Assembly: GCA_903854475.1 (NCBI GenBank)
Contig: CAINWP010000313.1
Coordinates: forward strand, 1 to 34,789
DNA length: 34,789 nt
Origin: an uncultured Verrucomicrobiota bacterium
Lineage (GTDB): Bacteria > Verrucomicrobiota > Verrucomicrobiia > Limisphaerales > UBA9464
Direction of reading: 5' to 3'
The position numbers were made by a program, and so were the translations under genes. A model generated the notes under the pieces. It did no database searches, had not been told where the DNA came from, and saw only the letters and a program-made list of their open reading frames with translations. Shown here in pieces: positions 26,083 to 34,789 of this stretch. Positions within the stretch are counted from its first letter, which is position 1. The number at the start of each line of letters is the position of its first letter.

Positions 26083-27042
26083 GTGCATGGCAAACCCATC
26101 GTAGTGACCGGTGGCGCGGGATTCATCGGATCTCACTTGACCGACCGTCTGCTGGAGGCGGGCGAGCAGGTGATCGTTGTGGATGATTTGTCCACGGGTT
26201 CCCGCTCCAATCTGACGTTGGCTGAGCGGAATCCCCGGTTCAGTTTCCGCGCCTGCAAGGTTTCAGAATGCCATGATCTAGAATCACTCGTGGCCAGTGC
26301 CGCGATGGTGGTGCACTTGGCGGCTGTTGTGGGTGTGGAACAGGTGATGCGTTCGCCCATCCGTACCATCGAGACCAATCTTGGCGAGACCGAGGTCGTG
26401 CTGGCTGCAGCCTCTCACAGTGGCACACCGGTGCTGCTGGCTTCGACCTCCGAGGTGTATGGGAAAAGTTCCCAGCCAGAGTTTTCGGAGACCGATGACT
26501 TGCTCATCGGCCCATCGACGTTGGGACGCTGGAGTTATGCCTGCTCCAAGCTGATGGATGAGTTTTTAGCGATGGCCTACTACCGCGAGCGCGGAGTGCC
26601 GGTGCGCATTGTGCGTTTCTTCAACACGGTGGGTCCCCGGCAGACCGGAGCCTACGGAATGGTCATTCCGCGCTTTGTGGACTCGGCCCGAGCGGGCCGC
26701 CCGGTGCAAGTTTATGGTGACGGTCGTCAGTCCCGATGTTTCTGCCATGTGGCCGATTCCGTCGAGGCGGTCCTTCGCTTGATGAAGTCCCCGGAAGCGG
26801 TGGGGCAAGTGGTGAACGTGGGCAACGACCAGTCAGTGGAAATCCGGGAATTGGCAGAGCGGGTGGTCCGGGTAACGCAGTCGGCATCCCGGGTGGAGTT
26901 GGTTGCCTATGAGACCGTTTTCGGTCCGGGTTTTGAAGACATGCGCCATCGCAAACCCAGCCTGAAATTGCTGGAGCGTCTCACAGGGTTTCGCCCTCGG
27001 CGGACGCTGGATGAGATCCTGAATGATCTGATGGGGGCCTAA
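26083..27042 (+). CDS. NAD-dependent sugar-nucleotide epimerase/dehydratase (extended SDR)
   Basis: About 319 residues from GTG 26083; GTG 26044 would add 13. The NAD-binding motif VVTGGAGFIGSH is at the extreme N-terminus, which decides the start. VVDDLSTGSRSNL follows, then the active-site ASTSEVYGKS and the catalytic SYACSK (YxxxK). The RIVRFFNTVGPRQTGAYGMVIPRFV segment resembles UDP-glucuronate decarboxylases and UDP-glucose 4-epimerase relatives. The product would be a modified nucleotide sugar for envelope polysaccharide; the exact reaction cannot be fixed from motifs. The gene diverges from the tail-anchored protein gene, and no other sugar gene flanks it. Confidence 0.88.
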   Translation: MHGKPIVVTGGAGFIGSHLTDRLLEAGEQVIVVDDLSTGSRSNLTLAERNPRFSFRACKVSECHDLESLVASAAMVVHLAAVVGVEQVMRSPIRTIETNLGETEVVLAAASHSGTPVLLASTSEVYGKSSQPEFSETDDLLIGPSTLGRWSYACSKLMDEFLAMAYYRERGVPVRIVRFFNTVGPRQTGAYGMVIPRFVDSARAGRPVQVYGDGRQSRCFCHVADSVEAVLRLMKSPEAVGQVVNVGNDQSVEIRELAERVVRVTQSASRVELVAYETVFGPGFEDMRHRKPSLKLLERLTGFRPRRTLDEILNDLMGA

Positions 27043-27073
27043 GCCGGACTGATCCAACTTTAAAAAATTGTTC

Positions 27074-27106
27074 CCGCTCAGACGAACGACTGAGGCGGTC
27101 ATTTTT
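27074..27106 (+). terminator. Possible terminator of the epimerase gene
   Basis: Imperfect hairpin with CTCAG/CTGAG as core stem and flanking CCGC/GCGG pairing around an 8-nt loop, followed by TCATTTTT, about 32 nt after the stop codon. Confidence 0.5.
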
Positions 27107-27270
27107 AGCCTCATGCCGGCCGGGTATGTCTCGAAGTGAACTCAGGGAGCGCTCGTTTGTCTGCCCGTTCGGCCGCTCTCCCATGCGGTCAATTTCTCGC
27201 TGAGACCTTGCTGGGCGCTTCGATAGCGATGATCTCATTGCTTCCGGAATATCCTCGAGCACTGGACCAA

Positions 27271-27298
27271 AAACCCGATCGAGAAAACCCGGTCGAGA
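27271..27298. repeat. Two tandem copies of a 14-bp unit
   Basis: AAACCCGATCGAGA is followed directly by AAACCCGGTCGAGA, with one difference. The repeat lies between two convergent terminators. No function is evident. Confidence 0.5.
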
Positions 27299-27313
27299 AA
27301 AATAAAATCGGCA

Positions 27314-27346
27314 AAACAAAAAGGCACCCCGGTGGGGGTGCCTTTT
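27314..27346 (-). terminator. Rho-independent terminator of the second prepilin gene
   Basis: Perfect 12-bp inverted repeat, aaaaggcacccc / ggggtgcctttt (27319-27330, 27335-27346), with loop GGTG. Read leftward it is followed by TTGTTTTG, 40 nt after the stop codon. Confidence 0.9.
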
Positions 27347-27386
27347 GTGTGTTCAGCCCAGAAGGGCCAAATCCGATGCAAACAAC

Positions 27387-28148
27387 TTAGTTGCCAGCAG
27401 CCGGGAAGATGAAGTTCTGCGCGCCGGAGGCGGCAGCGGAGTCGCGGATCTGATCGCGGAAGCGGCCCGAGGAAACCTGCTGCACGGAGCCGTCACCCAA
27501 GAGGATGTTGCCGGCGTTCTGATGGATCGCGCTGGTGTATCCGATCTTGTTCAGGGTCGCGACGGCGATGGCACCGTTGGCGTCGGGGGTTGCGAAGATG
27601 ACGTGCTTGCCGGCCAGCTGAGCTTCGGTTGAGCCGTTGGTCACGTTGCGGTCGCCGCCCAAGATGCTCTGGGGCTGCTCTTCAGTGGCGGTGGTGCCGA
27701 GGAAGTAGCTCGGAACCTTCTGGTTGTTGGCGAGGGCCAAGCGCTGCACCCCCACCCAGGTGTTGGAGGCAGTGTAGCGGCTGCCGTCGGACGGGCACCA
27801 GACGATCTTCGGGGTGCTCAACTCGTTGGACACGGCAGCGAAGGCGGCGGTGACGTTGTTCGAGATGGCAGTGGCGGGAGTGCCAGCCGCGGTGGCGTTG
27901 ACGAGCGAGACACCGCCCTGATCGGGGCTGACCTGCCAGGGGTAGGCACCATTGAAGTCTACCGCGAAGGTGCGGAAGGCCAGACCGATGTTCTTGAGGT
28001 TGTTGACGCAGGAGATGCGGTTGGCGCGAGACTTGGCCTTGGCCAGAGCAGGCAAGAGCATGCCGGCCAGAATCGCGATGATGGCGATAACGACGAGCAA
28101 CTCGATCAGCGTGAAAGCGCCGAGACGTTGTTTACGGAGACGATTCAT
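27387..28148 (-). CDS. Prepilin-type protein (type IV pilin/pseudopilin-like)
   Basis: 253 residues. A basic leader [11 protein letters not shown] is cut before [20 protein letters not shown], again with Ala at -1. The [34 protein letters not shown] stretch (named by LLPALAKAK and [12 protein letters not shown]) is the usual continuation of the N-terminal helix. The globular part has one pair of Cys residues (CVNN, WCPSDGS) and the ending [17 protein letters not shown]. It is typical of abundant verrucomicrobial pseudopilins; whether it builds pili or a secretion pseudopilus is unknown. The gene is monocistronic: a strong terminator follows, and sigma-70-like and sigma-54-like promoter elements precede it. 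Confidence 0.86.
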
Positions 28149-28187
28149 AGGATTTAGTTAGTGAAGTTAAGGGCTTAAGGTGCGGCG

Positions 28188-28215
28188 ACTGTAGGCAGTC
28201 AACATAGGGTGTCAA
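28188..28215 (-). promoter_or_regulatory. Possible sigma-70 promoter of the prepilin gene
   Basis: TTGACA (28210-28215) and TACAGT (28188-28193) on the minus strand, 16-nt spacer, about 40 nt before the ATG. GTTGAC is repeated about 12 nt apart here, which leaves the exact -35 position open. Confidence 0.5.
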
Positions 28216-28233
28216 CGCCATTTGTCCCGTTTC

Positions 28234-28250
28234 AGCTATGGAGATGCCAT
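28234..28250 (-). promoter_or_regulatory. Possible sigma-54 element upstream of the prepilin gene
   Basis: On the minus strand, ATGGCATCTCCATAGCT keeps TGGCA, the GC doublet and the exact 10-nt GG-to-GC spacing of -24/-12 promoters. The predicted start is about 75 nt before the ATG. The same bases form a palindrome (GAGATG-C-CATCTC, 28241-28253), which is an alternative explanation. Confidence 0.35.
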
Positions 28251-28328
28251 CTCTCTAAAACAGGGTTTTCATTGGTCTTTCGCTGATTTTTACAGGATGC
28301 GTCAGCGTGCACTGCGTGATCTCGACGC

Positions 28329-28354
28329 ATACGAAGAAAATTTTTTCGTCGTAT
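28329..28354. other. AT-rich imperfect inverted repeat
   Basis: ATACGA (28329-28334) pairs with TCGTAT (28349-28354) with A/T-rich inner pairing, and TTTTTT follows on the plus strand. It resembles a weak terminator or a regulator site; no plus-strand gene lies before it. Confidence 0.3.
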
Positions 28355-28379
28355 TTTTTCAGAGGAGGTCCTGAGAAAG

Positions 28380-28406
28380 AAAAAACCCGGGCAATCGCCC
28401 GGGTTT
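28380..28406 (-). terminator. Rho-independent terminator of the glutamine synthetase gene
   Basis: Perfect 10-bp inverted repeat, aaacccgggc / gcccgggttt (28383-28392, 28397-28406), with loop AATC. Read leftward it continues into TTTTTTCTTTC, about 40 nt after the stop codon. Confidence 0.92.
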
Positions 28407-28447
28407 GTGAGAGTCATTTCGGGAGGGCGCTCAGACGCCCTGGCCGA

Positions 28448-29476
28448 TTACGGCGTGGGAACCGTTGCGATCGTCTGAAGGATGCGGCTGGCGATCGCGT
28501 ACGGGTCGCCTTGGGAGTTCGGGCGGCGATCTTCAATGTACCCCTTGTAGCCGTTGTTCACGAAGCTGTGGGGAACTCGGACCGACGCGCCGCGGTTGGC
28601 CACTCCGTAGCTGAACTTGTCGATCGACTGGGTCTCGTGCAAACCCGTCAGGCGAAGATGGTTGTCCGGTCCGTACACAGCGATGTGCTCGTTCTTGTAT
28701 TTGTCGAACGCCGCCATGAGGGACTCGAAGTAAGGCTGGCCACCCGTCTCGCGCATGTAGGTCGTCGAGAAATTGGCATGCATGCCCGAACCGTTCCAAT
28801 CCACGTCTTTGCCGAGGGGCTTGCAGTGCCAGTTGATTTCAATGCCGTACTTCTCGCAGAGGCGCATCATGAGGTAGCGAGCGACCCATACCTGGTCGGC
28901 GGCCGTCTTGGAGCCCTTGCCGAAGATTTGGAATTCCCACTGTCCCTTGGCGACTTCGGCATTGATGCCTTCGTGGTTGATGCCCGCATCGAGGCACAGC
29001 TCGAGGTGCTCTTCGACGATTTCGCGAGCGATGTCACCGACGGCTTTGTAGCCGACGCCGGTGTAATATTCGCCCTGAGGATACGGGAAAGTGTCGAGGC
29101 CAGCGGGGAAACCGAGCGGACGGCCGTCTTTATAGAGGAAATACTCCTGCTCGAAGCCGAACCAGGCGCCGGGGTCGTCCAAGATGGTTGCGCGAGTGTT
29201 GCTCTGATGAGGAGTCACACCATCGGGCATCATGACTTCGCACATCACCAGAACCCCGTTCTTGCGGGTGGTGTCGGGATAAACGGCCACCGGCTTCAAG
29301 ACACAGTCGGAGCTACGACCCTCAGCCTGACGGGTGGAACTGCCGTCGAAATTCCAGAGGGGCAATTGCTCCAGCGTCGGAAGGTTCTCAAATTCCTTGA
29401 TCTGGGTTTTGCTGCGGAGGTTGGGGACTGGCTGGTAACCATCGAGCCAGATGTATTCCAATTTGTATTTAGCCAT
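28448..29476 (-). CDS. glnII: Glutamine synthetase type II (eukaryote-like)
   Basis: 342 residues. It makes glutamine from glutamate, ammonia and ATP in the cytoplasm. Size and motifs are those of GSII, not the 470-residue GSI: YIWLDGYQPVPNLRSKT, LPLWNFDGSSTRQAEG, WFGFEQEYFLY (metal-binding Glu residues), GINAEVAKGQWEFQIFG, NGSGMHANFST, and RLTGLHETQSIDKFSYG followed by NRGASVRVP and YIEDRRPNSQGDPY. GSII is not regulated by adenylylation, as the Tyr site of GSI is absent. The start is set at ATG 29476, since an ATG at 29527 lies upstream of the predicted sigma-54 start point and would not be transcribed from it. It is likely nitrogen-controlled together with glnK-amtB. Confidence 0.95.
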   Translation of the reverse strand: MAKYKLEYIWLDGYQPVPNLRSKTQIKEFENLPTLEQLPLWNFDGSSTRQAEGRSSDCVLKPVAVYPDTTRKNGVLVMCEVMMPDGVTPHQSNTRATILDDPGAWFGFEQEYFLYKDGRPLGFPAGLDTFPYPQGEYYTGVGYKAVGDIAREIVEEHLELCLDAGINHEGINAEVAKGQWEFQIFGKGSKTAADQVWVARYLMMRLCEKYGIEINWHCKPLGKDVDWNGSGMHANFSTTYMRETGGQPYFESLMAAFDKYKNEHIAVYGPDNHLRLTGLHETQSIDKFSYGVANRGASVRVPHSFVNNGYKGYIEDRRPNSQGDPYAIASRILQTIATVPTP

Positions 29477-29826
29477 GGATGTGAATGGTAGTGACTGCAG
29501 CGAATCGTCCCGATGCAGCGAATTCATGAAGCAGGGCAGGTGCCATGATTCGTTCGCCGCACTTCCCGCCTGGGGAAATGGGATGTTTTCGGGGGAAATG
29601 ATAAACTTAGCAGGCCGGCTCGCCTACAAATTTTGCGCGAAGACCGATAAACGAGTGTTGATTGTTGTTCTTGATGGGTAAAAAGAATCAAAGTATCCGC
29701 AGGGTCGTTGGATAGTTCAGGGCAGCAGGGTAGCCATGGTGGTTGCTGGGTTTGACCCATCCTCGGTTTCTATCGGCTTCCCCACTGGCCGGACGGTGGT
29801 GGGTCTTCTACTGTGTCGGCACGCTC
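29477..29826. other. Divergent regulatory spacer
   Basis: About 350 nt between glutamine synthetase and the kinase-like gene. The side near glnII holds the sigma-54 element. The rest is A/T-richer than its surroundings (29610-29700) and should contain the promoter of the kinase/phosphatase pair, but I see no convincing -35/-10. Confidence 0.5.
29529..29546 (-). promoter_or_regulatory. Sigma-54 (-24/-12) promoter of glnII
   Basis: On the minus strand the sequence ATGGCACCTGCCCTGCTT contains TGGCAC, the GG-N10-GC spacing and CTGCT of the RpoN consensus. The predicted start is near 29519, giving a leader of about 43 nt before the glnII ATG. RpoN control of glutamine synthetase under nitrogen limitation is well established in other bacteria. 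No palindromic NtrC site is evident nearby. Confidence 0.75.
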
Positions 29827-30234
29827 ATGTTGAAGGTCAAAGACACACTGCGGTCCACGGTTCACCTGAGCTTTGATGGACGGGTGATCAAGACTTACCA
29901 CGGCCCCGACGCCACTCTGCGATTCGAAACCGAGGTGAAAATGCTGAAGTTCTTGGAAGCCCAAGGGTGCCCCTTCGTGCCGCGACTCATCGCGGAAAAT
30001 TCGAACCTTCCTCAAATTGTTACGACCAATTGCGGGCAACGGGTCGAACACTTGGATTCTGAGCGGCTTCAAAGCCTCTTTGCCGAGTTGGAGACCTATG
30101 GCGTTCGGCACGACGATCAGGCTGCGAGGAATGTCACCTACCGGGGTTCCGACGGACGTTTTTGCATCATCGATTTTGAGTTTGCGACTCTGCTGAACGC
30201 GTCCTCCTCTGCATCCTCTGAGGGCCTTGAATGA
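29827..30234 (+). CDS. Minimal protein-kinase-like protein (Bud32/RIO-like motifs)
   Basis: 135 residues from ATG 29827 (the frame is open to 29743). A compact kinase-fold candidate. VIKTYHG supplies a beta-3 Lys (K22) and FETEVKML a helix-C Glu (E34 or E36). RHDDQAARN fits H-x-D-x4-N of the catalytic loop (H95, D97, N102), and IIDFEFA gives a DFG-equivalent Asp (D116). Only about 20 residues follow, so almost the entire C-lobe is missing, and no Gly-rich loop is visible. The key catalytic residues are all kept, which argues for activity or nucleotide binding rather than decay. Its stop overlaps the start of the PP2C gene (ATGA, 30231-30234), so an antagonistic kinase/phosphatase pair is plausible. 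The target is unknown. Confidence 0.65.
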   Translation: MLKVKDTLRSTVHLSFDGRVIKTYHGPDATLRFETEVKMLKFLEAQGCPFVPRLIAENSNLPQIVTTNCGQRVEHLDSERLQSLFAELETYGVRHDDQAARNVTYRGSDGRFCIIDFEFATLLNASSSASSEGLE

Positions 30235-31079
30235 ATGCCACGACCTGTGACATCGCCCGCTTCCGCCTGCACTGGTCTGGTTGTTCCGACCGCGGGAAGG
30301 TTCGCGCCAACAATGAGGATGCCTTCGTGGGGTTGCGGTTCAACCGGCAGGAGTTGGAGCGTCTGGGCAAGGAGGGTCAGGCGGCGCTTCAGACGGCCGA
30401 TTTCGTTTTTGCTGTCAGTGATGGCATGGGGGGCGCGCAAGCCGGAGAATTTGCCAGTCGGATCGCCGTCGAAAAGGTACCTCAAATTTTGCCGAAAGGA
30501 TTTCGTCCAGAATTCGAGCATCCTGAGGCCAATTCTGCAGGGGTGCTCTTGCAGGCGCTCTTCCAGGAAATTCACAAGGCCCTCGTCTACCTGGGTCAAA
30601 GCTATGAGGAGTGCCGTGGCATGGAGACGACCCTGAGCTTGTGCTGGTTTGCTCCGGGACTTCTGCACTTTGCCCATGTGGGTGACAGTCGAATCTACTA
30701 CCTGCCCGCCAACGGAGGCATTCGCCAGCTCACCGAAGACGACACCCACGTGGGTTGGCTGCATCGGCAGGGGAAGATCAATGAGCGCGAGGCCAGAACC
30801 CACCCGAGGAGGAATGTGCTCCAGAAGGCACTGGGAGGAGGCAATCAGTTCGTGGATCCCCAGATCGGTTCCGTTGCCTACACTGTAGGCGATCGATTTT
30901 TGCTCTGTTCCGACGGTTTGGTTGAGGGTTTGTATGATGCCCACCTGCTGGACTTGATCGGGGTAGCCGGAGTGGCTGGAACGCAGGAAGGATTGGGGCA
31001 GCGCTTGGTGGAAGCCTCTGTGGCGGCCAGTGGTCGGGACAATACCACAGCCTTAGTGATTGAAGTGGGAGGAGTCTGA
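30231..31079 (+). CDS. PP2C-family serine/threonine phosphatase
   Basis: 282 residues, a complete single-domain, metal-dependent phosphatase of the bacterial PrpC/Stp class and soluble. Motifs in order: SDRGKVRANNEDAF (D30), VSDGMGGAQAGEFASR (D64 metal ligand), GMETTLSLCW, HFAHVGDSRIYYL, LTEDDTHVGWL, RRNVLQKALGGG, LLCSDGLVEGL and SGRDNTTALVIEV. All metal-binding Asp residues are present. The gene is translationally coupled to the kinase-like gene before it and converges with amtB; no terminator hairpin of its own is seen apart from the shared one at 31134-31161. Confidence 0.94.
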   Translation: MNATTCDIARFRLHWSGCSDRGKVRANNEDAFVGLRFNRQELERLGKEGQAALQTADFVFAVSDGMGGAQAGEFASRIAVEKVPQILPKGFRPEFEHPEANSAGVLLQALFQEIHKALVYLGQSYEECRGMETTLSLCWFAPGLLHFAHVGDSRIYYLPANGGIRQLTEDDTHVGWLHRQGKINEREARTHPRRNVLQKALGGGNQFVDPQIGSVAYTVGDRFLLCSDGLVEGLYDAHLLDLIGVAGVAGTQEGLGQRLVEASVAASGRDNTTALVIEVGGV

Positions 31080-31130
31080 CCTCGGGGGGCAGTCCGGCCC
31101 ATTCCGTAGGTTTGTTTGGAGCCGGACAGC

Positions 31131-31161
31131 AAAAAACCGCGCCGGTTTCCCAGCGCGGTTT
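31131..31161 (-). terminator. Rho-independent terminator of amtB
   Basis: Inverted repeat aaaccgcgc (31134-31142) / gcgcggttt (31153-31161) with a 10-nt loop. Read leftward it ends in a run of six T, about 28 nt after the amtB stop. Confidence 0.88.
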
Positions 31162-31188
31162 GAAGTGCGTTTCGGGTTATCCGAAATG

Positions 31189-32604
31189 TTAGCCGTGGTA
31201 GCCCTCCTCGCCGTGCTCGGCGAGGTCGAGACCATTGATTTCCACTTCTTCGGTCGGGCGGAGTCCGACGAGCGCCTTTACGATGTAGGCGATGATGGCT
31301 GTGGCCACGACGCTCCAAACGATGGTCAGAACGACCGCTTTGAGCTGAGCACCGAGCAAGCCAACCTTCAGGCCTGCCACCACCGAGTTGGCCTTCTCGT
31401 CGGCCAGGATGCCGGTGAGGATAGCTCCCAAGGTCCCGCCGACGCCGTGCACACCGAAGGTGTCCAGAGCGTCATCGTAACCGATCCACTTCTTAAGGAA
31501 GGAGCAGGCCAAGTAGGGAACAATGCCGGCCAAGACGCCGACGAGGACCGCGGAAGTCGGAGTGATGAAGCCGCAGGCCGGAGTGACCACAACCAAACCA
31601 GCGACGATGCCCGAGCAGAATCCGAGGACGCTGGGCTTGCCGCGAGTGATCCACTCGATCATGGGCCAGACGAAACCGGCGGTGGCGGCAGCCAAGGTGG
31701 TGGTGGTGAACGCGTTGGCGGCGATGGCGTCGGCGCCGAGTGCGGAGCCCGCATTGAAACCGTACCAGCCGACCCAGAGCATGCCCGTGCCAACCATGCA
31801 CAACGTCATCGAGTGCGGGGTCATGGGTTCACGACCGAGTCCCTTGCGCTTGCCGAGGATGATGCAGAGCACCAAGGCGCTCCATCCTGAGGTCATGTGC
31901 ACGACGGTACCACCGGCAAAATCCAGTGCCTTAATGGCGGCGTCTTTGTTCAGCGGTCCGCACATCAAGCCGGTGGTGGACCAGACCATGTGGGCGAACG
32001 GGAAGTACACCGCGAACATCCAGATGGTCACGAACAGAAGCACCGCGATGAATTTCATGCGCTCGGCGATGGCTCCGATGATCAAGGCCGGGGTGATGAT
32101 GGCGAAGGTCAGCTGGAACATGGCCCACATGGAATCGCTGATCCAGTAGTAGCCTGCGCCCACGGCCCCGGACTCGACGCCCTTGAGCATCGCGTACGCA
32201 GAATCGCCAATGATTGCGTTGCCGGCACCGAACGAGAGGCTGTATCCGATAGCCCACCAGAGGATCGTCACCAGTCCGGCGATGCCCATGCACTGAGCCA
32301 GCACCGAAAGGATGTTCTTTTTGCGGACCAGACCGCCGTAGAACAACGCCAATCCGGGCATGGTCATGAACAGCACCAGCGCGGTGGAGGTCATTTGCCA
32401 GGCGTTATGGCCTGGGCCTGGACCGGCAATCTTGCTGGTGACGTTGGTGTTGGCAGCGGTGGCGCGGACGGAGTTGTTAACGTACGCCTCCAAGTCGGCC
32501 AAGCGCTCTTCGACGCTGGGGTCGGCGGCGCGGGTATCGACTGCGGCAAACGCCAGAAGGGCGCAGGTGAGTGTCAGGAAAAATTTTCTAAAAAACGTTT
32601 TCAT
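31189..32604 (-). CDS. amtB: Ammonium transporter Amt
   Basis: 471 residues: an N-terminal signal peptide (MKTFFRKFFLTLTCALLAFA, cleaved near ADTRA-A), a periplasmic stretch of about 45 residues, then eleven transmembrane helices of the Amt/Rh family. It conducts ammonium across the inner membrane. Family segments include GLALFYGGLVRKKNILSV, FQLTFAIITPALIIGAIAERM, DFAGGTVVHMTSGWSALV and WVGWYGFNAGSAL, with DTFGVHGVGGTLGAI near the C-terminus. Pore His residues lie in VVHM and GVHG. The C-terminal cytoplasmic tail is about 30 residues, as needed for PII binding. It lies 66 nt behind glnK, the usual order. Confidence 0.96.
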   Translation of the reverse strand: MKTFFRKFFLTLTCALLAFAAVDTRAADPSVEERLADLEAYVNNSVRATAANTNVTSKIAGPGPGHNAWQMTSTALVLFMTMPGLALFYGGLVRKKNILSVLAQCMGIAGLVTILWWAIGYSLSFGAGNAIIGDSAYAMLKGVESGAVGAGYYWISDSMWAMFQLTFAIITPALIIGAIAERMKFIAVLLFVTIWMFAVYFPFAHMVWSTTGLMCGPLNKDAAIKALDFAGGTVVHMTSGWSALVLCIILGKRKGLGREPMTPHSMTLCMVGTGMLWVGWYGFNAGSALGADAIAANAFTTTTLAAATAGFVWPMIEWITRGKPSVLGFCSGIVAGLVVVTPACGFITPTSAVLVGVLAGIVPYLACSFLKKWIGYDDALDTFGVHGVGGTLGAILTGILADEKANSVVAGLKVGLLGAQLKAVVLTIVWSVVATAIIAYIVKALVGLRPTEEVEINGLDLAEHGEEGYHG

Positions 32605-32670
32605 CTATTTTTGGGTCCTTGGGTCCAGTAAGGGGTGATTGGGGCTGGGAGTAGGAGGGATGCCTTCAGT

Positions 32671-33117
<447 letters not shown>

Positions 33118-33142
33118 CTACCATTTCGGCTTAAAACCATGG

Positions 33143-33160
33143 AAGCAGCAGGGATGCCAA
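33143..33160 (-). promoter_or_regulatory. Sigma-54 (-24/-12) promoter of glnK-amtB
   Basis: On the minus strand TTGGCATCCCTGCTGCTT keeps YTGGCA, the GG-N10-GC spacing and CTGCTT. The predicted start is near 33133, leaving a leader of about 124 nt. It closely resembles the element before glnII (TGGCA, then CTGCTT at the same spacing), consistent with one nitrogen regulon. Confidence 0.7.
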
Positions 33161-33354
33161 TCACATTTTCGCTTTGGTTTATGAGGCTAAAACTGAGGAA
33201 AGGCTGGAAAAACCCTTTGTGATTTCCACCCGTCGTTTTCGAGTCGAAAGCCGGGGTGGTTCTTTTTGACCAGTCAGGTGAAAAAGGGCAGGGAGGCTGT
33301 GCAGAAACAGAAGTTGAATCCGTCACACCCCGTGATGGAGCGATCGGTCTTTGC
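33161..33354. other. Upstream region of glnK with structured elements
   Basis: About 190 nt between the sigma-54 element and the transporter stop. A two-tier inverted repeat lies at 33226-33259: outer stem CCACCC/GGGTGG, inner TTTCGA-G-TCGAAA. A smaller repeat (TCAC-N5-GTGA) lies at 33323-33335. These could be a terminator for the transporter transcript or binding sites for an activator; they do not match the NtrC consensus. Confidence 0.4.
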
Positions 33355-34789
33355 TCAAGGCTTGGGCGGCAACGACGGACCCAACAGCAAAACGGTGCCT
33401 ACGATAACAACCCAGCCGACGACATCGAGCCACAGCCCGTGGCGCATCATGGTCTTCAGAGGGATGCAGCCTGTTCCGTAGGCCATGGCATTGGGCGCAG
33501 TGGAAACCGGTAACAAGAAGCCCATGGAGCAGCCCAGGCAGGTGGCTAGGGCGGGCTTGAGGGGATCTATACCGGCAGCCTGCGAAACAGCGATGGCAAT
33601 GGGCACCACCATGGTGGCCGACGCGGTGTTGGTGGTGGTTTCACTGACGAGTATGCCAACCCCTGTGAATAGTAGGGTCAGGCCCACCACCGAATGACTT
33701 TGAAACAGCGCTGCCAAGCCGGAACCAATCCAGTGGGCCAGGCCGGTGGAAAACATTAATTCGCCCAGACACATGCCTCCGGCGAAGAGCAGGATTGTTC
33801 CCCAATCAATGGCTGCGGCGTCCCGCCACTCCAGGGTGAAGGAATCTCGTTGAGAACTGGTGGGCAGGAAGAACATCGCTGAAGCCGCCAAAAGGCCGAT
33901 GATGCTTTCTGGAGCGTGGGCACTGATCCATAAATAAGCAGGACTCGACGATCCTCGGTCATCCAGGGCCGCGATGAGTCCGGGCAAGATCCACAAGCCT
34001 ACTGCCCCCAGGAATACAGCCACCACATTCAATTGCCCGCGGGTCCAACTGCCCAGGCTGGCCCGTTCCGTCGCCAGCCAATCGCGGTTGGTGGACAGGG
34101 ATACGGTCGGAATCGGGCAATGTCGGCTGAACCGCCAAACCAGAAACCCTGTCAGAACGATGGCAATCGGAAGTCCCAGACCCATCCATTGGAAGAAGGT
34201 GATTTTGTAACCCAAGAGCCGCTCGATGGCTCCGATCCCGATAAGGTTGGGCGGGGTGCCGATGGGCGTGGCCAAGCCGCCGACGGAGGCCGCGAAGGCG
34301 GTGATGAGCATGAGCCCCGCAGCAAATGGCGTGGCTTGATAATTAGTCATTCCTTGGCGAGAGCCCAATTCGGCCAAAATCGACAGGCCGATGGGCAGCA
34401 TCATGGCCGTCGTGGCCGCGTTGGAGACCCACATGGAAATCACCGCCGTAATGCCTGCGAAGGCGGCGTACAGGCGGGTGGGGCTGGCTCCGACCCAGGG
34501 CATCGCCAGCAGCGTGAAGGCAAAACGTCGGTTGAGGCCGTGTTTGAGCATCGCTTCGCCCATCATGAAGCTGCCCATGAATAAGAAGATAACCGGGTCG
34601 GAGAAAGGCTTGAAGACCTCCCGTGCTGAGCCTAGCCCAGCCAGCACGCAGAGCGACGGTGCCAAGAGCGCCGTCGCCGCTAGAGGAATGGCTTCGGACA
34701 TCCAAAGTGTCAGTGCCATGCCGACGATCGCAAAGAGGTGTCGAGCCGGAACGGACAATCCTGGGAATGGAATAAACCACAGCACGACC
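33355..34789 (-). CDS. DASS/SLC13-family anion symporter (5' end outside window)
   Basis: About 478 codons are visible; the gene begins beyond the right edge, as the first helix is incomplete. It is a multi-pass inner-membrane carrier of the divalent anion:sodium symporter family, importing dicarboxylates, sulfate or related anions. Family segments: LTLWMSEAIPLAATALLAP, the first SNAATTAMMLPIG motif (SNT-type), GGLATPIGTPPNLIGIG, WGTILLFAGGMCLGE, the second motif ETTTNTASATMVVPIA (NT-type) and GFLLPVSTAPNAMAYG. Both Na+/substrate hairpin motifs are present, so it should be functional. The substrate cannot be assigned from the sequence. It lies upstream of glnK on the same strand, but the spacer makes co-transcription unlikely. 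Confidence 0.9.
   Translation of the reverse strand, partial: VVLWFIPFPGLSVPARHLFAIVGMALTLWMSEAIPLAATALLAPSLCVLAGLGSAREVFKPFSDPVIFLFMGSFMMGEAMLKHGLNRRFAFTLLAMPWVGASPTRLYAAFAGITAVISMWVSNAATTAMMLPIGLSILAELGSRQGMTNYQATPFAAGLMLITAFAASVGGLATPIGTPPNLIGIGAIERLLGYKITFFQWMGLGLPIAIVLTGFLVWRFSRHCPIPTVSLSTNRDWLATERASLGSWTRGQLNVVAVFLGAVGLWILPGLIAALDDRGSSSPAYLWISAHAPESIIGLLAASAMFFLPTSSQRDSFTLEWRDAAAIDWGTILLFAGGMCLGELMFSTGLAHWIGSGLAALFQSHSVVGLTLLFTGVGILVSETTTNTASATMVVPIAIAVSQAAGIDPLKPALATCLGCSMGFLLPVSTAPNAMAYGTGCIPLKTMMRHGLWLDVVGWVVIVGTVLLLGPSLPPKP

Follow-up and report, generated by a model that had tools for sequence, protein, structure and literature searches.

The atypical kinases Bud32/PRPK and RIO share a motif set and the kinase-core fold with the small protein described below, which we call the mini-kinase, but they keep a C-lobe after the metal loop, which the mini-kinase lacks, and the latter falls far under the Bud32 cut-off. 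OspG and SteC are injected effectors, and we know of no PP2C partner gene for either of them. Compared by their description in PMC13395416, both are minimal kinases with a depleted C-lobe, like the mini-kinase; OspG is reported there to require a bound partner, further cutting of SteC, whose C-lobe is small, gave an inactive construct, and SteC retains the substrate-binding helix F, which is absent from the mini-kinase. The closest solved structure, as judged by Foldseek, is that of the tRNA kinase ArkI/Ark1 (COG2112). According to the account in PMC9095486, ArkI has DFE in place of DFG and no subdomain VIII, as does the mini-kinase, but it carries HGQ, extra C-lobe helices and a YKR motif, whereas the mini-kinase has H-x-D and ends soon past DFE. 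ArkI acts on tRNA, with KptA as the eraser (PMC9095486), while the mini-kinase is paired with a PP2C-type phosphatase. This phosphatase has the fold and metal residues of Stp1/PstP and PphA; in contrast to these, its partner gene encodes something other than a Hanks kinase, and its score stays under the Stp1 equivalog cut-off.

The third gene of interest at this locus encodes a glutamine synthetase (GS) of the GSII type. GlnE controls GSI by adenylylation, which has reversible covalent control of GS in common with the switch proposed here, but GSII is another enzyme class and the chemistry would be different. Plant GS belongs to the GSII type, and we know of no settled account of post-translational control of bacterial GSII. 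Plant GS is phosphorylated, by kinases described in a 2015 review as still to be identified (PMC4515544). The kinase-phosphatase pair is not described in the titles and abstracts of the open-access papers listed for Verrucomicrobia in combination with PP2C, kinase or glutamine synthetase, and a text search of PMC1821047 gave no match.

The mini-kinase locus

The window, i.e. the whole stretch of DNA analysed, is a 34,789-nt contig (CAINWP010000313.1, assembly GCA_903854475.1) of an uncultured Verrucomicrobiota bacterium (Limisphaerales, UBA9464). The neighbouring genes (glnII, amtB, glnK) were named from sequence, and homologues were then found in relatives. The features are the following.

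28448-29527, minus strand: GSII-type glutamine synthetase gene, glnII (ORF; shares its 78 class genomes with the mini-kinase)
29530-29545, minus strand: sigma-54 -24/-12-like site TGGCACCTGCCCTGCT, directed towards glnII (pattern; intergenic regions of relatives)
29827-30234, plus strand: mini-kinase, kinase-fold protein of 135 amino acids (ORF, conservation, AlphaFold2 model, Pfam APH), with K22 at 29890-29892, D97 at 30115-30117 and D116 at 30172-30174, and also E36, H95 and N102
30231-31079, plus strand: PP2C-type phosphatase of 282 amino acids (Pfam profile, metal-site residues, Foldseek matches to PstP and tPphA)
31134-31161, minus strand: terminator-like hairpin in the gap between the PP2C gene and amtB (consensus scan)
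31189-32604, minus strand: amtB, ammonium transporter gene (linked in nearer relatives)
32671-33057, minus strand: glnK (PII), T-loop YRGSEY (homologues in relatives)
33144-33159, minus strand: sigma-54-like site ahead of glnK (one match to the pattern, window only)

As the initial annotation had stated, the pair is set between nitrogen-assimilation genes, with glnA/glnII (minus strand) to its left and amtB and glnK (minus strand) to its right, and the ORF coordinates bear out the ATGA overlap of the mini-kinase frame with a complete PP2C gene. The glnII ORF as called begins at 29527, but relatives align from MAKYKLEY, at 29473. No sigma-70-like site for the mini-kinase was found in 29400-31250, and Rfam gave no match at gathering score in 27000-34000. 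The hairpin comprises 12 pairs with T following on the minus strand; the terminator-like scan yielded 2 sites against 2.4 expected.

Relatives were collected by an exact-peptide-pattern scan of species genome contigs, the best 80 of 242 being kept. Among these 80, all labels were Verrucomicrobiota or its subgroups, except for one locus labelled Proteobacteria (L048) and three labelled only 'bacterium'. Of 59 genomes searched, the window's own and those of relatives, 41 have the mini-kinase. K22, the helix-C residue E36, H95-x-D97-x4-N102 and D116-F-E, placed in the 135-residue frame as in the initial annotation, are invariant in 88/88 distinct proteins from 110 loci, collected in overlapping sets; in a wider set of distinct mini-kinase proteins, with class-wide loci added, K22, E36, H95, D97, N102 and D116 are each retained in 154/154, so that their occurrence cannot be due to chance. 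C48, P52, G70, T104, Y105, G110 and E118 are likewise found in 154/154. The annotated start is supported by the invariance of M1 and K5-R9 over 80 aligned rows. Cys48, and N68-C69-G70, which is nearly invariant in the 88 nearer proteins, have no role that we are aware of.

Across 109 unfused loci of the nearer set, counting duplicates, the mini-kinase is 124-142 residues long and, as had been noted in likening it to much longer Bud32/RIO kinases, extends just 6-24 residues beyond DFE. Small size is therefore a trait of the family and not a truncation in the window genome, and the chain stops too early to include an activation segment, APE or helices F-I. Of the Hanks-type features, the protein thus has the equivalents of the VAIK Lys, helix-C Glu, HxD, Asn and DFG Asp (154/154), and lacks, besides the elements just named (the same 109 loci), the glycine-rich GxGxxG loop, its beta1-beta2 consensus being KDTLRATVHL.

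Structure prediction of the protein alone, proposed at the outset as a check, gave a kinase fold. The AlphaFold2 model, built on 80 aligned sequences, has a mean pLDDT of 90.9 and pTM of 0.83, and contains, by our own assignment, helix C, an alpha-E-like helix and five strands in the N-lobe and core, the strands belonging to the N-lobe, besides the catalytic and metal loops; the last listed element is a strand at 120-122, and residues 126-135 have pLDDT below 50. In a Foldseek search of the PDB the best match was Ark1 of G. acetivorans (E 7.4e-7, TM 0.68 by query), followed by Rio2 and archaeal Bud32. In VIA, ACVR1, PRPK, Rio2 and Ark1 were effectively tied at Z 12.3-13.2 (PRPK 13.1, Rio2 13.0), with archaeal Bud32 at 11.3. 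Thus, the kinase fold is well supported and the nearest family is unsettled. Profile searches against kinase superfamilies, also proposed initially, were divided in outcome. Pfam APH (PF01636) matched residues 72-122 with 25.7 bits, above the gathering cut-off of 23.2, the best stretch spanning only profile positions 146-199 of 239; it was matched by 80/80 members of alignment A1, and Kdo kinase by 60/80, at E <= 0.01. Bud32 (TIGR03724), on the other hand, scored 17.9 bits, far under its curated cut-off of 125. The HGQ loop and C-terminal YKR helix of ArkI are missing, D97 replacing Q in 154/154 proteins and the C-lobe being absent, and a PDB sequence search with the mini-kinase matched no kinase. 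The model and these comparisons support well a predicted kinase N-lobe and catalytic core without a C-lobe.

A mobile-element or phage origin of the mini-kinase was considered and rejected, P0001 being without a match in plasmid or phage collections. Separately, phrog_3297, a phage family of 160 positions labelled 'kinase', matches mini-kinase residues 16-122 at 2.8e-5, and kinases of similar small size may occur in phages.

The PP2C partner

The phosphatase matches Pfam PP2C_2 (PF13672) with 62.7 bits (cut-off 24), and its metal-site positions D30, D64, G65, D228 and D270 are invariant in 143/143 aligned PP2Cs. Its nearest structures in Foldseek are PstP and tPphA, while for the Stp1/IreP equivalog NF033484 it scores 173.8 bits, under the curated cut-off of 230.

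Conservation of the gene pair in relatives was another expectation that held. In 79 of 80 loci from named genomes (L002-L081), the mini-kinase gene is followed on its own strand by a PP2C gene, whose start is estimated to lie no more than 60 bases from the kinase stop in 65 of them and no more than 458 bases in the remainder; at the one other locus (L045), the contig stops 21 bases past the mini-kinase. A profile search of 387 Verrucomicrobiota genomes returned 79 mini-kinase genes in 78 genomes, all of one class. PP2C follows 60 of these genes, is fused with 11 in one frame and is separate from seven; in one genome (G374) mini-kinase, PP2C and GSII are all apart, with PP2C on a different contig. 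In the seven genomes with separate genes (G309, G236, G365, G335, G385, G377, G326), the mini-kinase is elsewhere and PP2C stands divergently next to GSII. The nearer set holds one more fusion (L106). A model of a fused chain reached a pTM of 0.68, too low to define how the domains are placed relative to each other; two of 19 in-frame kinase/PP2C pairs, with several stops between the genes, were left out of this analysis.

Weak profile matches in three genomes outside the class (G264, G325, G398) were judged by eye to be unrelated, longer proteins of other build; no PP2C of matching kind was found in the 6.5-12 kb examined at these loci, and they were set aside from the two-by-two table given below. 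The ORF from 4631 at one of them (L141, in G264) encodes a 456-residue protein that by eye resembles a methyltransferase ending in a small kinase domain (HRD...N, DFE); its similarity to the mini-kinase is weak, and the layout recalls WbdD.

Association with GSII

With the window GSII as the query (E <= 1e-60), GSII was found in 86 of the same 387 genomes, namely the 78 mini-kinase genomes and eight others, all of them outside the class. Both genes were thus present in 78 genomes, the kinase only in none, GSII only in eight and neither in 301; as the 387 genomes are not independent, a Fisher value for this table should not be read as a probability. The two genes are adjacent in 65 of 79 pairs and not within 3 kb in the other 14. 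One genome (G412) has two fused kinase-PP2Cs (L192, L172) and two GSIIs, each pair adjacent, the second GSII being about 50% identical to that of the window; the module appears to have been duplicated or acquired twice. Genomes with both genes and with neither coexist within the family-level groups f27, f29 and f35, among the genomes listed, and at least 41 class genomes have neither mini-kinase nor GSII.

GSII lies upstream and divergent in 67/80 nearer loci (within 600 bases in 64 of them) and in 54/66 class-wide loci; it is downstream on the same strand in 5/66 class-wide loci, as well as in L212 and L213, and seven f27 loci have the order kinase-PP2C-GSII, all on one strand. As control neighbours, DASS, epimerase and pilin genes recur in 10, 5 and 10 of 80 loci, respectively, although they are located farther out and contig ends depress their counts.

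Of the 59 genomes that make up the nearer set, 40 carry both genes, 16 have neither and two (G058, G036) have GSII without the kinase, while in the remaining one (G018) the mini-kinase is present and GSII is cut by a contig end. G058, of the same order and 95% complete, is a genuine exception to the tie: its GSII, about 80% identical and split over two contig ends, stands next to amtB-glnK, and the search gave neither a mini-kinase anywhere in the genome nor a PP2C close by. At its locus L230, glnK, amtB and the start of GSII share a strand, and neither the kinase nor PP2C was matched there. The GSII of G036 is 61% identical, and the genome search there gave no mini-kinase. Thus, across one class of Verrucomicrobiota, there is a strong association in which the mini-kinase and PP2C accompany a eukaryote-type GSII with few exceptions.

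Control by sigma-54 had been claimed for both glnII and the glnK-amtB unit, and a sigma-54-like site is supported for the former. Scanning the divergent GSII-kinase regions for sites agreeing at 9 or more of 11 positions (best site per region, near-duplicate regions included), we found a sigma-54-like site in 114 of 118, compared with about 12.5 expected from Markov resampling; in every passing region the best site points to GSII, never to the mini-kinase. The site upstream of glnK did not fare as well: in the window, 6 occurrences of the pattern with at most one mismatch were found against 3.95 expected, which is not above chance. A sigma-54 gene is encoded in the window genome.

Sequences of 126 GSIIs from kinase-bearing genomes were compared with 14 others, leaving out matches shorter than 320 residues, with stops, or from the duplicate loci L082-L110. 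No Ser or Thr was clearly diagnostic of mini-kinase genomes in this comparison; the positions that come closest (189, 238 and 304) carry Ser/Thr in half of the 14 others as well. R331 (counted from MAKYKLEY) alone passed the diagnostic filter, being present in 126/126 and 1/14, respectively. Among the matches listed, GSII encoded on rhizobial plasmids shares about 71-81% identity with the verrucomicrobial enzyme. At six such plasmid loci (GSII 76-79% identical), the surrounding 2-4 kb gave no match to the mini-kinase or PP2C, and the mini-kinase had no match in the plasmid collection.

Possible substrates and mode of action

The association of kinase, PP2C and GSII suggests that ammonium assimilation is under a dedicated phosphorylation switch not recognised before. 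The reading we prefer, to which we give an even chance of being right, is that the two proteins are a covalent-modification pair devoted to ammonium assimilation through GSII, with the GSII oligomer as the most likely substrate and a partner protein of GSII as a possible one. A kinase core of about 125 residues would bind ATP through K22, E36 and D116 and transfer phosphate by means of D97 and N102, PP2C would take the phosphate off again, and the surface of GSII would stand in for the missing substrate-binding C-lobe. The predicted fold and the GSII gene association, directly computed or observed here as were the other traits, are joined by invariant transfer residues, intact PP2C metal residues and natural fusions, and together with the near-strict tie to GSII these fit reversible phosphorylation of GSII or its partner. 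From them we infer catalysis and antagonism between the two enzymes; GSII as the direct substrate, and an effect on its activity, would follow in the same manner. More tentatively, and with the chances leaning somewhat against it, a kinase that stands alone, with about 125 ordered residues and no C-lobe, could use the GSII oligomer as a surrogate C-lobe and, together with PP2C, set GS activity by reversible phosphorylation throughout the class. The occurrence of GSII without the mini-kinase in G058 and G036 weighs on the preferred explanation, and the rhizobial plasmid GSIIs with neither kinase nor PP2C nearby, and the want of a diagnostic Ser/Thr in GSII, speak against it. The inactive SteC construct (PMC13395416) counts against it too, as does the fused-chain model, which shows no fixed arrangement of kinase and PP2C.

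For an ordinary protein kinase working by itself, the lack of a C-lobe is a genuine difficulty; GSII or PP2C would then have to present the substrate. This lack also lends weight to a competing explanation, which we consider unlikely though the strongest of the alternatives, in which the kinase-fold protein is a barely or non-catalytic ATP/ADP-binding subunit regulating PP2C or GSII, PP2C is the sole working enzyme and some other kinase supplies the phosphoprotein. The HxD Asp and the Asn of kinases, here D97 and N102, serve phosphotransfer, beyond nucleotide binding alone, and their retention in 154/154 proteins speaks against such a subunit, as do the seven genomes that keep the mini-kinase away from PP2C. 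The end of the chain 6-24 residues past DFE in the 109 nearer unfused loci would nevertheless be expected of it, the 11 natural fusions give a fixed stoichiometry with PP2C, and a SteC construct without much of its C-lobe is described as inactive (PMC13395416). By analogy, the need of OspG for a partner and the inactivity of the shortened SteC would fit a partner-dependent mini-kinase and equally a regulatory subunit.

It is also conceivable, with a still smaller probability, that the pair acts on a different nitrogen protein, the most plausible being PII (GlnK), modified at Ser49 of the T-loop as in some cyanobacteria. There, the PP2C PphA dephosphorylates PII, the PII kinase was described as still to be identified in a 2015 review (PMC4285133), and SpkB was put forward as a candidate in 2023 (PMC10651672). 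At first we favoured PII as the main target, given the neighbouring GlnK and its Ser49: amtB is near the pair in 57/80 and glnK in 48/80 nearer loci, 48 of 49 linked GlnKs have the YRGSEY T-loop, and tPphA is among the closest structures to the phosphatase. However, PII occurs in 265/387 genomes, most of them without the mini-kinase, including at least 22 of the class genomes with neither mini-kinase nor GSII, and one mini-kinase genome (G204) gave no PII match. Because PII does not follow the mini-kinase whereas GSII does, PII was demoted as a target. Furthermore, amtB or glnK is near the pair in just 4 of 33 wide-class loci with both flanks covered, although these flanks are only about 3 kb each and more distant linkage is therefore possible, and the window genome has GlnD-like genes (three matches, all under the family cut-off, the best with 433.9 bits). 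The link to nitrogen status hinted at in the initial annotation is thus strong with respect to GSII class-wide (78/78 kinase genomes), while the glnK-amtB linkage is found mainly in nearer relatives; the original inference is strengthened, and our results support redirecting it from general nitrogen status to GSII.

Least probable, and in our opinion quite unlikely, is that the protein resembles ArkI or APH in function and phosphorylates RNA or small molecules: Ark1 is the top Foldseek match, DFE also occurs in ArkI (PMC9095486) and the A1 members match APH and Kdo kinase as given above, but ArkI is described with HGQ, a long C-terminal YKR helix and a basic surface (PMC9095486), whereas the mini-kinase has H-x-D, no C-lobe and slightly acidic residues 1-124 (median net charge -1, positive in 34/154), and its PP2C partner suggests a phosphoprotein substrate.

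If the more tentative reading, with GSII as a surrogate C-lobe, is true, it would provide a further solution for the control of GS, beside adenylylation by GlnE and control by bound proteins. The mini-kinase would then perhaps be the smallest free-standing kinase, and it would test how little of the kinase fold suffices for phosphotransfer. The three-gene module makes the question of GSII control directly testable in culturable Verrucomicrobiia.
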